Shown here piece after piece: positions 56,229 through 62,572 of a stretch of DNA of 64,000 nt. The notes under the pieces were generated by a model that did not search any database, was not told where the DNA came from, and saw nothing but the letters and a program-made list of their open reading frames with translations. Source of the DNA: Chloroflexota bacterium (GTDB taxonomy: Bacteria > Chloroflexota > Anaerolineae > UBA4142 > SHND01); the NCBI GenBank assembly GCA_029778615.1, contig JAKOPZ010000024.1, positions 1 to 64,000 on the forward strand, in the 5' to 3' direction. Within the stretch, counting starts at the first letter, position 1; the number at the start of each line of letters is the position of its first letter. The translations under genes were made by a program, and so were the position numbers.

Positions 56229-56567
56229 TACGGGCAAAAAAGGGGCAGAAAATAATTTGCGCCTTTGCATCCCTTGTGCTACTATCGCCCCCGCTTCACG
56301 AGAGGCGAAACGCCAATTGGCGGATTTTCCCGTTTCGCTCTCGCTTCACCCGGTCATTGTGAAATTTTTGTAACGTGGCAATTCCCGCCTGTATCCATTC
56401 CACGTCAAGCAGAGAAACGTTTCGGGTTTCTCCCGCTCACCGTTCACGCTTCCCCCGTCCCGTTGAAAAGCTTGCGCGCAAGGCACGTTTGCGCGTGATG
56501 GATTTGTACGGGGATGGGCGCGTTTCCTCCGCCCTGAACGGTAGTCCCGACAAGGAGATTGCAAGTT
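56229..56567 (+). other. 339-bp region: promoter and long leader of the glycosidase gene
   Basis: TTGCGC (56257-56262) and TACTAT (56280-56285) with a 17-bp spacer form a promoter, giving a leader of about 275 nt. The leader contains a bulged hairpin (CGAGAGGCGAAACG... with ...CGTTTCGCTCTCG, about 56300-56343). I do not recognise a known riboswitch. No gene is supported. Confidence 0.55.
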
Positions 56568-59495
56568 TTGAATGCTCAATCTAATCCCGCTCAAGGATTC
56601 GCGAATTGGTTTCGCAAGCACCCCGGCACGGCGCTGGTCTATTTTATTGTCTTGCCGCTGATGGCGTGTGCGGTCTTGATGCTGCCGCCCATCGCGCTGC
56701 CTGCGCGCATCGCTAACGCGGGCTATATCTCTGTTAACCCCAAAGGCACCACCGTCACCAACGCGGACGGATTCGAAATTACGATTCCCGAAAACGCCGT
56801 CAAGAACGGGACCTCGATTCGCGTTTCCACACAGTCACTGGAAAATTTCCAAAAGAGCGATTTGGCGCGCACCCTGCCCATGTATCTCGAACCGCGCAGT
56901 GCGTTGTATCAATTGTCGCTGCAAGGCGAACAGCCGCAGCAGACGCAATTGATGGTGCCGCTGCCGACGGACGTGGATTCGTACGACACGCTCGATTTGT
57001 TTGCGTTATGGAATCAACGCTGGTTCAAAATTCCGTTCTATATGAATATGGACGACGAACGATTTGAATCCACGTTGAACTTTGCCCCCGAAGCCGTGTT
57101 GGTCGTAAACACGCTGCCGCTCGCGCCGGTGATTGCTTCCAACATTCCGAACCGTACCACGCCTTCAGACCAGATGGATAATTTGTTGGTGCAGGTCAAT
57201 CCGCAAGGGCTGCAAATTGCCGATGAAGGAAGTATTGCCGGAGACCCCGTAAGCATTCAGGAAACCAATCCCGTATCGGTGTTTGCGGTATTGCCAACCG
57301 TGACCAATGTGGACGCGAACGGCGTGCGGACAGATTTGGTCGGGAACATGATGGTTGACGACGCACAGCGCGCCGCGCACATTAGCGCGTTGGTGGACCT
57401 CGCGGTGCAGCGAGTCTATCGCGGCTATAACATTTCGTACGAAGGAGTGAGCGCGAGCGACGAACCGTACTTTACCGCATTCATCAAAGACCTCGCGCGC
57501 GAACTGCACGCGAAACAAAAAATTCTGAGCGTCACGTTACCCGCACCCACACCTATCTCCGAAGAGGAATTTGACACGGGTGGTTACAACTGGGCGCTCA
57601 TCGGGCGTTACGCCGACCAAGTAAAAATTCCGCTGTTGAGCGACCCGGGCGCGTATGACGGTGAACCGTCGCTGCAATACCAATATCTCAAATGGGCAGT
57701 CAGTCAAATTGACCGCAGTCGAATTCAATTGCTCGCGTCGGTGCAAGGACGTGACAGTACTGCCCAATCCTTTTCACCCGTACAGTTTGGCGACGCGTTG
57801 AAACTGGTCGGCGCGGTGAATGTGCCGCCGGACGCGCAGCCCGGTACCAAAGTGACGTTAGAATTGCAAACCCTCAAAGACGCGGGCGGTATTCAAGTGA
57901 ACGAAGCGAGCGGTCTGTTTTATTTCAATTATCAAGATAAAGCCGGCGTCGCGCATACCGTCTGGCTCGAAAACGCGGACTCGCTTGCCAAGAAAATTTC
58001 GTACGCGCTGCAATTTAATCTCGGCGGCGTCGCGTTGAGTGATTACGACGCGCAATCGAAAATTGACGAACGCATTTGGACGGTGCTCGAAAATTACAAA
58101 TCCATGCAGCCCACAGTAGTTGAAAATCGGTTACAGTTGGTATGGAGCGTGGATAAAAATCAAATCGGCACTTCGTCCGTCACCGACCCAAAAATTACAT
58201 GGAACGCGCCCAAAGATGGCGACCAACATCAAGTTGAAGTAGCGCTTTCGGTGGATGGCGGTGTCACTGCCGGTCAACCGGTGGGCAGTGTGGTGAAACT
58301 CGCGCAGCTTGCGCCAACACCGAAACCAACCGAGCCGCCCGAAGCGACGCAACCGCCGGCAAAAGTACAACCGACCAAAGCGCCCGCGAACAATGCGCCA
58401 AAACCGACAACACAGCCTGCCGCGAATCCGACGCCGAAACCGCCGCCTCCGCCATCGGGAGGAAATTTCAGCGGACAAAATCTTTTCAATTACGGCATTC
58501 AATTGGATTGGACCAACAAAGACCGCGATGCGGAATTGAGTCAGGTCAATAACATGGGTTTCCGCTGGGTCAAGATTCAAGTGCGTTGGTGCGATATGGA
58601 AGGTTCGCGCGGCAACGCCGATTTGGGCTCGACGGATGATTTCATCAACAAAGCCGCCGCGCACGGCGTCAAGGTCATCTTTAGTGTCGTGTGTGCGCCC
58701 GCGTGGTCTCGCGCAGATGGCGGCGCGGGCGGTTCCGGTCCGCCGGACGATATGCAGGATGCAGCAAATTTCATGGGCGGACTCGCGGGCAAATACTGCA
58801 ACAGCGCGCTCGGCGCGATTGAAGTATGGAACGAACACAATCTTTTGACCGAATGGCATGGCAAACCGTTGTCCGCCGCGTTGTATATGGACATGCTCAA
58901 GAAATCATACGCTTCCATCAAAGCGGCATGTCCGAGCATCGTCGTCATTTCCGGCGCGCCAACGCCAACCGGTTGGAATGACGGCGTAGTCGCAACTGAT
59001 GACGCGGTGTTCCTCGAGCAGATGTATCAAAACGGACTGAAAGATTATTCCGACGCGATTGGCGCGCATCCGAGTGGTTTCAATGTGCCCGCGCTGTGCA
59101 ACATTCTCGACCCCGCGTGCAATCGCCCCGAAGCATCATTCCGCGCACCGTTCGATAGTCGCCATCACAGTTGGGGCTTTTTGGGAACGATGTTGACCTA
59201 TCGCCAAATTATGGTTTCGCACGGTGACGGCAACAAACAAATTTGGCCCACCGAATTTGGCTGGCCCACGCACACGGGCGGTTCCTGCGGCGGTGGTCCC
59301 TGTCATCCGGCTGGCGCGGACAATTCTCCCGAACAAGCCGCGCAGTGGTATGTGGAAGCCTATCAATGGGCAAAGCAGCAGGGCTGGGTCGGCGTGATGA
59401 CCGCATGGCAGTTGGACTTTGACCGAGGCGAACTCGATGCGTTTCGCATTCTCGGAAAACCGGCGTACGACGCGCTGGCGGGAATGCCAAAGTAG
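56568..59495 (+). CDS. membrane-anchored protein with two glycosidase-like domains
   Basis: The ~975-residue protein has an N-terminal membrane segment (about residues 22-48). A beta domain comes next, then a GH18-like barrel region with 'YRGYNISYEGVS', where the family has DxxDxDxE, so only the Glu is retained. A Pro/Thr/Lys linker (about 585-640) leads to a C-terminal GH39/GH5-like barrel with 'AIEVWNEHNLLTEWHG' (acid/base Glu after Asn) and 'IWPTEFGWPTHTGG' (nucleophile Glu). I prefer the TTG at 56568, 10 nt after AAGGAG, over a TTG at 56559. It probably acts on extracellular polysaccharide, perhaps its own envelope glycan. Confidence 0.85.
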   Translation: MNAQSNPAQGFANWFRKHPGTALVYFIVLPLMACAVLMLPPIALPARIANAGYISVNPKGTTVTNADGFEITIPENAVKNGTSIRVSTQSLENFQKSDLARTLPMYLEPRSALYQLSLQGEQPQQTQLMVPLPTDVDSYDTLDLFALWNQRWFKIPFYMNMDDERFESTLNFAPEAVLVVNTLPLAPVIASNIPNRTTPSDQMDNLLVQVNPQGLQIADEGSIAGDPVSIQETNPVSVFAVLPTVTNVDANGVRTDLVGNMMVDDAQRAAHISALVDLAVQRVYRGYNISYEGVSASDEPYFTAFIKDLARELHAKQKILSVTLPAPTPISEEEFDTGGYNWALIGRYADQVKIPLLSDPGAYDGEPSLQYQYLKWAVSQIDRSRIQLLASVQGRDSTAQSFSPVQFGDALKLVGAVNVPPDAQPGTKVTLELQTLKDAGGIQVNEASGLFYFNYQDKAGVAHTVWLENADSLAKKISYALQFNLGGVALSDYDAQSKIDERIWTVLENYKSMQPTVVENRLQLVWSVDKNQIGTSSVTDPKITWNAPKDGDQHQVEVALSVDGGVTAGQPVGSVVKLAQLAPTPKPTEPPEATQPPAKVQPTKAPANNAPKPTTQPAANPTPKPPPPPSGGNFSGQNLFNYGIQLDWTNKDRDAELSQVNNMGFRWVKIQVRWCDMEGSRGNADLGSTDDFINKAAAHGVKVIFSVVCAPAWSRADGGAGGSGPPDDMQDAANFMGGLAGKYCNSALGAIEVWNEHNLLTEWHGKPLSAALYMDMLKKSYASIKAACPSIVVISGAPTPTGWNDGVVATDDAVFLEQMYQNGLKDYSDAIGAHPSGFNVPALCNILDPACNRPEASFRAPFDSRHHSWGFLGTMLTYRQIMVSHGDGNKQIWPTEFGWPTHTGGSCGGGPCHPAGADNSPEQAAQWYVEAYQWAKQQGWVGVMTAWQLDFDRGELDAFRILGKPAYDALAGMPK

Positions 59496-59556
59496 AAAAT
59501 CGAAAAAGCAGCGACGCAAAAAACGCTCGCTGCTTTTTTATTTTCGCGAACACGGA

Positions 59557-59562
59557 TATACT
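59557..59562 (+). promoter_or_regulatory. -10 hexamer TATACT before the ProRS-like gene
   Basis: TATACT ends 7 nt before the ATG at 59570, with no Shine-Dalgarno between them, which suggests a leaderless mRNA. Confidence 0.5.
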
Positions 59563-59569
59563 TGCTGCG

Positions 59570-61069
59570 ATGCGTTACTCTCAACTCTTTGCCAAGACCA
59601 AACGTGATGCGCCCGCCGACATCACAGACGAAACATTGCGGCTCGCCTTTCGCGCGGGCTTGATTCGTCCCCTCGAACGCGGTCAATTCATTTATCTGCC
59701 GCTCGCCGCGAACGTAATCGCGCAAATGCTTGCCATGCTGCGCGGGGATTTGCGCGAATTGGGCGCGCAGGAAATTCGCGGCACGCCGCAGCTTGATTTT
59801 CAAGCCCTCGCTGCGGCGGAACTCTATTCGTATAAACACATGCCCGCGCGCGTGTACTGGCGCAGCGGCGGCGTTACGCGTTTGCATCTTGTATCGCTGG
59901 AAACCAGCTTTGACACGGCAAACGAAACGGTGCAGGCGTTTGAAAAAACAGCGCGCGATTTTTTCGAATACGCGGGCGTCGAACCGCAGGTGGCGCGCGA
60001 TGTAGGCGATGCGCGCATGTGGTACGCGATAGCGCCGCAGTTGAATCTCGAAATTTTGAAAAGTGATTCTTACGCGGCGACGCGCGCGGCGGCGACTCTA
60101 TTCAAAGCGCCCGCGCCGCAAGAACCACCCCTCCCGCTGGAACAAGTGGAAACACCGCACTGCGACACCATCGAAGCGCTCGCGCGCTTTTTGAACGTAC
60201 CCGCGAGCCGCACGGCAAAAGCCCTTTTTTATTCTACCGGCGAGCAGATTATCTTTGCAGTGATTCGCGGCGATTTGCAGATTGATGAAGAAAAAATCAA
60301 ACGCGCGTTGGGTGTACAAACGCTGCGCTGGGCGACGGATGACGAAATCGCGCGTGTCGGCGCGACGCCGGGCTATGCCTCGCCCATCCACACGCGCGGG
60401 GCAATCATTATCGTGGATGATTCAATTGTGAATTCGCCCAACCTCGTCGCCGGCGCGAACAAGGCGGGCTATCACATTTTGAACACGAACGTCCCGCGTG
60501 ATTACAAACCGAATGTTGTCACCGATATTGCTCTCGCCCGTGTCGGCGATACCGCGCCGATGGGAAACGGAACGCTTGAGCTTGTACGCGGCGTCGCGCT
60601 CGGAACGCTTTCGGCGCCGCGCGCGCTGGACGCGAATTTTCTCGACGTGAACGGCAAGACGCAAAAACAAATCGCCGTCAGTATGGAACTGAACCTGGGC
60701 GCGATTTTGCTCGCGCATCTCGCGGCGCATCACGACGACAAAGGCATTGTCTGGTCGCGTTCCATTGCGCCCTATGATGCCTACATTGTCGCTTTGAACG
60801 CCGACAAACCCGAAGTCGCGGACGCGCTCGAAAAAGTGGACGACGCGCTGACGCTCGCGGGTTTGGAATCCCTCATTGATGACCGTAATGAAAGCGCGGG
60901 CGTCAAATTTAACGACGCGGATTTGATTGGTCTGCCACTGCGTATCACCATCGGACCGAAAACAGTCGCGCAAGGCGCTGTGGAAATCAAAACGCGCACC
61001 GAACCAAGTGCGCGCGTGGTTGCGTTGGAAGCGGTGGGCGACGAGTTGAACAAGTGGATTGGAATTTGA
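59570..61069 (+). CDS. ProRS-like protein with YbaK-type editing domain but degenerate catalytic core
   Basis: The 499-residue protein follows bacterial prolyl-tRNA synthetase from end to end: 'RAGLIRPLERGQFIYLPLA', 'LRELGAQEI', a YbaK/INS editing insertion (about residues 185-345, 'GANKAGYHILNTNVPRDYK') and the anticodon-binding end ('DDRNESAGVKFNDADLIGLP'). However, about 50 residues after motif 1 are missing, including the T-x-E-E proline loop. The motif 2 segment FRDE...R is replaced by 'ARVYWRSGG', and the GCYGIGV-SR motif 3 by 'AVSMELNLGAILLA'. Aminoacylation is therefore unlikely. The editing domain looks more intact, so it may clear mischarged tRNA. No second proS is in view. Confidence 0.8.
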   Translation: MRYSQLFAKTKRDAPADITDETLRLAFRAGLIRPLERGQFIYLPLAANVIAQMLAMLRGDLRELGAQEIRGTPQLDFQALAAAELYSYKHMPARVYWRSGGVTRLHLVSLETSFDTANETVQAFEKTARDFFEYAGVEPQVARDVGDARMWYAIAPQLNLEILKSDSYAATRAAATLFKAPAPQEPPLPLEQVETPHCDTIEALARFLNVPASRTAKALFYSTGEQIIFAVIRGDLQIDEEKIKRALGVQTLRWATDDEIARVGATPGYASPIHTRGAIIIVDDSIVNSPNLVAGANKAGYHILNTNVPRDYKPNVVTDIALARVGDTAPMGNGTLELVRGVALGTLSAPRALDANFLDVNGKTQKQIAVSMELNLGAILLAHLAAHHDDKGIVWSRSIAPYDAYIVALNADKPEVADALEKVDDALTLAGLESLIDDRNESAGVKFNDADLIGLPLRITIGPKTVAQGAVEIKTRTEPSARVVALEAVGDELNKWIGI

Positions 61070-61647
61070 TGCTGCGGATTTTTTTATTTGGCTTGTTGGG
61101 GCTTGGCGCATGGATTGGCTTGCACGTAACGTGGACGATTCGTTCCGGGTTAGAGGCACAGCCGCGTCCTTCGGATGTGGCGGTGATTTTGGGTACGCGC
61201 GTTTCGCCAAATGGTGTGCCTTCGTTTTGGCTGCGCGGACGCCTTGAGCGCGGACTGGAATTGTATCAAGCAGGCACGGTGAAACATATCATCGTGAGCG
61301 GCGGACTCGGGCGCGAGGGACACCAAGAAGCCGACGTAATGCGCGAGTACCTGATTGCGCGCGGGGTTCCCGCCGAAAAAATCTTTACCGACCGCGCGGG
61401 CGATGATACGTTTGCCACCGCGCGGAACGCGAAAAAAATTATGGACGCGCAAAATTTCCAATCGGCGGTGATTGTTTCGCATTACTATCATCTTCCGCGT
61501 GCGCAGCTCGCGTTCAAACGGTTCGGTATTGTCAACGTGTCCGCGTCGGGCGTGGTCACAAACCCGCGTTGGAAGGATGTGGGCAATCTGCTGCGCGAGT
61601 TTGCCGCGTTTTATTTTTATGCGCTGAGGAATTATGCCGCGACGTAA
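61069..61647 (+). CDS. YdcF/SanA family (DUF218) membrane protein
   Basis: The 192-residue protein has an N-terminal membrane segment (about residues 2-22) and a DUF218 domain ('DVAVILGTRVSPNG', 'IIVSGGLGREGHQEADVMRE', 'EKIFTDRAGDDTFATARNAK', 'IVSHYYHLPRAQLAF'). Members are linked to envelope integrity, possibly acting on lipid-linked intermediates, but no activity is firmly known. Its ATG shares one base with the TGA of the ProRS-like gene and its end overlaps era by 14 bases, so the three form one translationally coupled unit. Confidence 0.9.
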   Translation: MLRIFLFGLLGLGAWIGLHVTWTIRSGLEAQPRPSDVAVILGTRVSPNGVPSFWLRGRLERGLELYQAGTVKHIIVSGGLGREGHQEADVMREYLIARGVPAEKIFTDRAGDDTFATARNAKKIMDAQNFQSAVIVSHYYHLPRAQLAFKRFGIVNVSASGVVTNPRWKDVGNLLREFAAFYFYALRNYAAT

Positions 61648-62572
61648 ACAAGAATCCCCAAAGGACCCAAGTGCCGAATCACCCCCAGTCCATCGCGCGG
61701 GCTTTTGTGCCATCGTCGGACGTCCGAACGTGGGCAAGTCCACGCTGTTGAATTTGTACGTCGGCGCCAAAGTCACAATTGTTTCCGACAAACCGCAGAC
61801 GACGCGCCGCGTGGTGCGCGGCATTTTGACGCGTCCCGACGCGCAAATTGTGTTTGTAGACACGCCCGGCATTCATCGCCCCATTCACCCGCTTGGAAAA
61901 TTTATGGTGCGTTCGGCGGCGGACACGCTCGACGATGTGGATGTTGTCGTGTTCGTCGTAGACGGCTCCAAGATGCCGACGCGCGAAGATGAAGACATTG
62001 CCGAAATGTTGAATGACCGCGTACGCGTCCCGGTGCTGCTCGCATTGAATAAAGTAGATTTGCTTAAACGCGATGCCATCGGCGAAATCACACAGGCATT
62101 TTTTGATTTGGTGGAACACGAAGATTGGATGCGGATTTCGGCGACGAAAAAAGACAATACGGATAAACTTTTGGAAATGATTTTGACGCGTCTGCCCGAA
62201 GGTCCCGCGCTGTTTCCCGAAGATGAAATCACCGATACGCCGATGCAATTTCTCGCGGCAGAGCTCGTGCGCGAACAATTGCTCATCAATACGCGTCAAG
62301 AAATTCCGCACTCGATTGCGGTGCAGGTGGACGAATGGGAAGAACGTTCCGCGCAGTTGACGTATGTGTCCGCGACAATTTGGGTGGAAAAAGACTCACA
62401 AAAGGCGATTGTGATTGGCGAACGCGGCAGCATGTTGAAAAAAGTAGGACAAGCCGCGCGCAAAGAAATCGAAGCATGGCTCGGACATCAAGTGTATTTG
62501 GAACTCATCGTCAAAGTGCGTCAACAGTGGCGGCGCGATGACCGAATGCTGCGTGAGTTGGGCTATGAATGA
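61634..62572 (+). CDS. era: GTPase Era
   Basis: The 312-residue protein has the G1 motif 'IVGRPNVGKSTLLN', switch region 'SDKPQTTRRVVRG', G3 'DTPGIH', G4 'NKVD' and G5 'SATKKDNTDKL'. The C-terminal KH domain contains 'IWVEKDSQKAIVIGERGSML' and 'LELIVKVRQQWRRDDRMLR'. Era binds 16S rRNA and helps assemble the 30S subunit. The N-terminal ~20 residues are a short basic extension. Its overlap with the DUF218 gene places it in an operon with the ProRS-like gene. Confidence 0.97.
   Translation: MPRRKQESPKDPSAESPPVHRAGFCAIVGRPNVGKSTLLNLYVGAKVTIVSDKPQTTRRVVRGILTRPDAQIVFVDTPGIHRPIHPLGKFMVRSAADTLDDVDVVVFVVDGSKMPTREDEDIAEMLNDRVRVPVLLALNKVDLLKRDAIGEITQAFFDLVEHEDWMRISATKKDNTDKLLEMILTRLPEGPALFPEDEITDTPMQFLAAELVREQLLINTRQEIPHSIAVQVDEWEERSAQLTYVSATIWVEKDSQKAIVIGERGSMLKKVGQAARKEIEAWLGHQVYLELIVKVRQQWRRDDRMLRELGYE

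Follow-up and report, generated by a model that had tools for sequence, protein, structure and literature searches.

What remains of a prolyl-tRNA synthetase (ProRS) when the motifs of its catalytic site are gone, and why would such a protein be kept? The question is raised by an open reading frame (ORF) of 499 amino acids, read from an ATG at 59570-61069 on the forward strand of the window, by which we mean the whole 64,000-nucleotide stretch of Chloroflexota DNA analysed here; its position and length are as first described. A preliminary description of this DNA had proposed a synthetase turned into an editing or regulatory factor.

A bacterial-type ProRS with a lost catalytic site

The only Pfam matches in the protein are tRNA_edit (residues 195-307, 85.1 bits against a gathering cut-off of 25.5) and HGTP_anticodon (residues 404-495, 63 bits); the class II core family tRNA-synt_2b is not matched. 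The protein scores 281 bits with the proline--tRNA ligase model NF006625, whose cut-off is 558, and 199 bits with TIGR00409, whose cut-off is 306.7. In phmmer searches residues 1-70 and 164-483 align to solved bacterial ProRS structures, including 5znj and 2j3l. Judged from its sequence, the ORF is a descendant of a bacterial (type II) ProRS. An AlphaFold2 model (11 sequences, mean pLDDT 77.8) superposes on Enterococcus ProRS with a Z score of 28.6 over 488 residues (rmsd 6.6), which suggests that the overall architecture is kept around a shrunken core and agrees with the earlier claim that the protein spans the bacterial ProRS architecture. The features of this pseudo-ProRS, for which we use the name ProRS-ed, and of its surroundings are as follows.

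59503..59539, forward strand: terminator-like hairpin and T run, separating the pseudo-ProRS from the upstream ORF (sequence and folds; similar in most congeners)
59557..59562, forward strand: TATACT, a -10-like box, 7 nt 5' of the ATG
59570..61069, forward strand: pseudo-ProRS ('ProRS-ed'), 499 aa (ORF, Pfam, family models, phmmer, congeners)
59570..60061, forward strand: shrunken N-terminal class II core remnant, residues 1-164 (alignments to intact ProRS; AlphaFold2)
60152..60490, forward strand: INS/YbaK-like aminoacyl-tRNA editing domain (INS), residues 195-307 (PF04073, 85-88 bits)
60218..60220, forward strand: codon of K217, aligned with K279 of E. coli ProRS
60416..60418, forward strand: codon of D283, aligned with E. 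coli D350
60473..60475, forward strand: codon of H302, aligned with E. coli H369
60605..60775, forward strand: C-terminal core remnant with motif 3 lost, residues 346-402 (alignment)
60779..61054, forward strand: anticodon-binding domain (ABD), residues 404-495 (PF03129, 63 bits)
61054..61647, forward strand: ydcF-like (DUF218) gene, its start overlapping the pseudo-ProRS stop at 61069
61634..62572, forward strand: era GTPase gene, starting before the ydcF stop at 61647

In the alignment with E. coli ProRS the protein has a deletion that runs from motif 1 to the T-x-E loop, with only TPQLD opposite GPTHEEV. The motif 2 loop (FRDE...REF) is replaced by SGGVTR, and motif 3 (MGCYGIGVTR) by AVSMELNLGA, with the loss of its arginine. 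The N-terminal remnant is accordingly without the T-x-E loop and has a short turn for the motif 2 loop; in the AlphaFold2 model the strands at residues 94-111 are joined by a tight turn. The window protein and its five congeners match at most one of the five catalytic residues (T109/E111, R140/E142 and R450), and that within a gapped stretch; otherwise these positions are deleted or substituted. The loss of the T-x-E-E loop, the motif 2 arginine region and motif 3 claimed in the preliminary description is therefore borne out, and the intact catalytic residues named there as a refutation are absent from the alignment. The protein has neither the class II motifs nor the NF006625 and TIGR00409 scores of a functional bacterial ProRS, and it has both the tRNA_edit match and the equivalents of K279, D350 and H369 that mark a deacylase of the INS superfamily.

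Sequencing error is excluded as the cause of the motif loss, since the same stop-free ORF occurs in five congeneric genomes at 68-77% identity, in the order upstream ORF, pseudo-ProRS, ydcF, era. The dN/dS ratio among congeners (Nei-Gojobori) has an overall mean of 0.18, with 0.12 for INS, 0.17 for the ABD and 0.35 for the core remnant; these values are rough, as some pairs are near synonymous saturation. The gene is clearly under purifying selection in the genus, and most strongly so in INS. A decaying pseudogene would account for the lost synthetase motifs, but it is contradicted by the full-length frames in six genomes, the dN/dS of about 0.18, the conserved synteny and promoter-like box, and the persistence of INS and ABD over long times in many families; we reject this reading as highly improbable. 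The YbaK-like domain and the anticodon-binding end had been described as better kept, and indeed all editing positions tested are retained and INS is the slowest-evolving part.

The coupled operon with ydcF and era that had been proposed holds in part. The genes overlap in the window and their order is kept in six of six genomes of the genus, but it is not conserved beyond the genus, where the link with ydcF and era finds no support as a clue to function. The TATACT box so close to the ATG, kept in five of six congeneric genomes, suggests leaderless transcription starting at the pseudo-ProRS ATG. The upstream ORF (56559-59495, 978 aa) has a weak match to glycosyl hydrolase family 18 and adjoins the pseudo-ProRS throughout the genus.

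Charging and editing proteins of the genome

Five class II core proteins of the genome match PF00587 and were read as ThrRS, SerRS, an archaeal-type ProRS, GlyRS and a HisZ-like protein, identities that come from reading the ORFs, with family models applied to ProRS only. The archaeal-type ProRS scores 542 bits with TIGR00408, above the cut-off of 437, and its motifs TSE, FRYE and GLSTR are intact. Pfam finds no editing domain in it, and its gene lies on a different contig from the pseudo-ProRS. The second intact proS whose presence the preliminary description had asked to be checked is thus found, and the pseudo-ProRS is not the sole proS of the genome.

PF04073 is matched by three further, free-standing editing proteins: one of YbaK type (138 bits to TIGR00011), one of ProXp-x type and one closest to 3op6. 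A ProXp-ala probe has no match in this genome. A UGG tRNA-Pro gene was read in the genome with G35/G36 and C1-G72/A73.

Degenerate ProRS across Anaerolineae

In a survey of 150 genomes of the class Anaerolineae, TIGR00408 is above its cut-off in 108 and NF006625 in 70. We collected 121 near-full-length bacterial-type ProRS, including a small number that came from congeners and relatives not in the survey, and scored the five catalytic residues, calling a protein degenerate in the strict sense if three or fewer were kept. Sixty-nine are intact and 52 are not, and 48 of the 52 keep three or fewer. All 52 degenerate copies (48 of 48 in the strict set) are in genomes with an archaeal-type ProRS. 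The intact copies counted divide into 35 with and 32 without it (Fisher p 1.4e-10, a value that ignores phylogeny and for which three congeners and one split gene were placed by inspection), and no degenerate copy occurs among the 32 genomes with the bacterial type only. An independent-pairs test of the co-occurrence had too few informative pairs, the archaeal-type ProRS being widespread. The bacterial- and archaeal-type proS genes are adjacent in several genomes of the class (L023, L034, L063, L103, L095, L086, L119). Genome G082 has two intact-looking bacterial-type ProRS (L081 and L160), one of them very divergent within the class, in addition to the archaeal type.

The degenerate proteins are not degenerate throughout. 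Of the columns conserved in at least 95% of the intact enzymes, the 48 strict copies retain a fraction of 0.97 in INS and 0.96 in the ABD, and 0.31 and 0.35 in the two parts of the core. None of the 52 degenerate copies varies at the equivalents of K279, D350 and H369 (E. coli numbering); in the ABD, D510, R512 and F520 are invariant in the 48 and K519 is kept in 98%. Between families, degenerate proteins share an identity of 0.45 in INS and ABD and of 0.15-0.23 in the core, the core of intact enzymes having 0.61-0.63. The proteins of family f28, of about 392-416 aa, have dropped nearly all of the core, so that INS and ABD are almost joined. Other lineages (G102, G106, G057) show milder changes, and these copies may still be active. 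They offer some support for the window protein being a still-active ProRS with unusual motifs, but here T-x-E, FRDE and motif 3 have gone or given way to other sequence, and the genome has a second, intact ProRS; we reject this reading too, as scarcely credible.

In the bacterial-type ProRS L120 (genome G114) the synthetase residues are intact, INS is divergent and the H369 equivalent is an aspartate, possibly the opposite loss, with editing gone and charging kept. The near-identical pseudo-ProRS genes L139 and L140 come from genomes of two families (G049 and G144), which probably reflects the misbinning or misassignment of one of the two genomes.

On a tree built from the INS and ABD columns alone, the state must change 13 times under the loose definition and 12 times under the strict one (parsimony), and strongly supported branches force at least 6 of the 13. 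Constraining the 48 degenerate proteins to one clade makes the tree 399 log units worse (AU p 1.2e-10; quick tree, LG+G4), and a single origin of the degenerate forms is rejected. Families f22, f31 and f36 each include both intact and degenerate copies. Beyond the class, degenerate copies of 525-530 aa turn up in three genomes of f57, other members of which have intact ones; Chloroflexus aurantiacus, a culturable organism, probably also carries a pseudo-ProRS. The same conversion arose several times independently among Chloroflexota.

Archaeal/eukaryote-type ProRS mischarges alanine, and ProXp-ala is the usual stand-alone editor of Ala-tRNA-Pro where ProRS is without INS. The ProXp-ala probe, a consensus that recovers bacterial ProXp-ala from the PDB at 183-199 bits, found no ProXp-ala that could make the pseudo-ProRS redundant among the 150 genomes surveyed; its best score there was 52 bits, whereas true ProXp-ala reaches 199. 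The pseudo-ProRS is the sole tRNA_edit match in nine genomes of the streamlined families f5, f10 and f11, eight of which were checked further. The retention of INS and ABD, the lack of a ProXp-ala match in the class sample, these nine genomes and the G35/G36 of the tRNA-Pro together point to trans-editing of Ala-tRNA-Pro. We therefore propose, with a probability of roughly 0.8, that the window protein is a dedicated trans-editing enzyme, predicted to hydrolyse Ala-tRNA-Pro with its ABD providing tRNA specificity. The editing half of the earlier proposal is much better supported, through the kept catalytic positions and the slow evolution of INS; the regulatory half did not fare as well.

The proposed course is that the editing-free archaeal-type ProRS, present and intact, took over the charging of tRNA-Pro, and that the bacterial ProRS already there afterwards ceased to activate its amino acid, a step visible in its lost residues. 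The pseudo-ProRS would have been kept since its INS would hydrolyse erroneous Ala-tRNA-Pro. The ABD would bind the proline anticodon (G35/G36) and bring the mischarged CCA end to INS, and Ala-tRNA-Ala would be spared through this anticodon reading. The core remnant is probably a spacer or a dimer scaffold. The INS of E. coli ProRS, in which K279A is an editing-defective mutant, has no intrinsic recognition of tRNA-Pro; it relies on the ABD for the reading of G35 and G36, whereas the acceptor stem makes no difference to it. Specificity through the ABD, sparing Ala-tRNA-Ala, has been shown for this enzyme (PMC3973320).

The presence of YbaK-like, ProXp-x-like and 3op6-like free-standing editors in the same genome counts against a role as the alanine editor. 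ProXp-x can also act, though less strongly, on Ala-tRNA-Pro (PMC11295145), and the INS of the pseudo-ProRS is therefore perhaps not the only Ala editor here. Three genomes (G058, G140, G153) have the archaeal-type ProRS but lack both a bacterial-type enzyme and any match to tRNA_edit; they may do without proline editing, which would make the function dispensable in some lineages.

A trans-editor with another main substrate, Cys-, Ser- or Abu-tRNA-Pro rather than Ala, would agree with the relaxed amino-acid specificity among INS-superfamily domains (PMC11295145), and genomes with the pseudo-ProRS as their sole tRNA_edit protein are also without YbaK. We consider it unlikely, given descent from an Ala-specific bacterial ProRS INS with its conserved columns kept, and given that this genome already has the YbaK-type and ProXp-x-type proteins for Cys and Abu. 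Less likely again is a structural or regulatory partner, held in a complex with the archaeal-type ProRS in the manner of HisZ or pol-gamma-B and serving scaffolding or control rather than hydrolysis. That most lineages keep a core remnant, and that a class II-like sheet is still predicted for it, would suit such a partner, as would the adjacency of the two proS genes in several genomes having an intact bacterial-type ProRS; but the hydrolytic domain is the most constrained, with catalytic residues invariant in all lineages, the f28 lineage has kept INS and ABD without nearly all of the core, and the archaeal-type gene of this genome is on another contig.

For the wider group we think it fairly probable that these are anticodon-reading trans-editors with about six or more independent origins in Chloroflexota, each beside an editing-free archaeal-type ProRS, reduced down to about 400 residues of INS and ABD and perhaps paired with the archaeal-type ProRS. 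If this is true, charging and proofreading of one synthetase are repeatedly separable once a second, editing-free enzyme is present, and the selective value of Ala-tRNA-Pro editing is made plain. PMC3973320 leaves open how anticodon recognition is relayed across about 70 angstroms to the INS site, and the natural minimal proteins, with INS and ABD and little or no core, could be used to probe this signal. The pseudo-ProRS genes are likely to be mislabelled proline--tRNA ligase in genome annotation.

Comparison with known systems

The ancestor is the bacterial (type II) ProRS of NF006625 and TIGR00409, with which the pseudo-ProRS has its domain order, INS and ABD in common; unlike it, the pseudo-ProRS has lost the class II signature residues and lies far under both curated cut-offs. 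Streptomyces ProRSx is likewise a duplicated bacterial ProRS, but its catalytic domain is retained and the tRNA that it charges is unusual; it is the sole ProRS entry in a review of synthetase duplication, in which genes without a catalytic domain were set aside (PMC9437257). In the open-licence literature we found no report of a ProRS-ed class, of ProRS editing in Chloroflexi, of degenerate ProRS-like proteins or of synthetase duplication in Chloroflexus.

The hydrolytic domain of ProXp-ala (5VXB) and of other free-standing INS-superfamily deacylases is homologous to the INS of the pseudo-ProRS, and the substrate expected for ProRS-ed is that of ProXp-ala, Ala-tRNA-Pro. The window protein is not itself a ProXp-ala, being multi-domain and derived from ProRS. 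The free-standing deacylases are mostly single-domain and, if they read any part of the tRNA, it is the acceptor stem (PMC11295145, PMC3973320), whereas ProRS-ed has its own ABD; a 2024 review describes the members of the superfamily other than the ProRS INS as single-domain (PMC11295145). MCP3 of Trypanosoma brucei, as is proposed for ProRS-ed, is a trans-editor of Ala-tRNA-Pro with more than a bare INS-type domain; its addition is an N-terminal extension, it is not a former synthetase, and it is promiscuous on Ala-tRNA-Ala unless AlaRS protects this tRNA (PMC11286415).

Archaeal ThrRS-ed, the Ser-tRNA(Thr) hydrolase of Sulfolobus (NF011500), is also a synthetase paralog with no working catalytic core, and the way of working proposed for ProRS-ed resembles its own. 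In both ThrRS-ed and ProRS-ed the editing and anticodon-binding domains are kept and a separate charging enzyme stands alongside, as expected of a synthetase-derived trans-editor; in our genome this is the intact archaeal-type ProRS. Membership of the ThrRS-ed family is excluded by descent, since NF011500 gives the window protein 12 bits of 362 and its best family is ProRS. ThrRS-ed comes from ThrRS and has an unrelated editing domain, whereas ProRS-ed comes from ProRS with INS and is bacterial, has several origins and keeps a large core remnant in most lineages.
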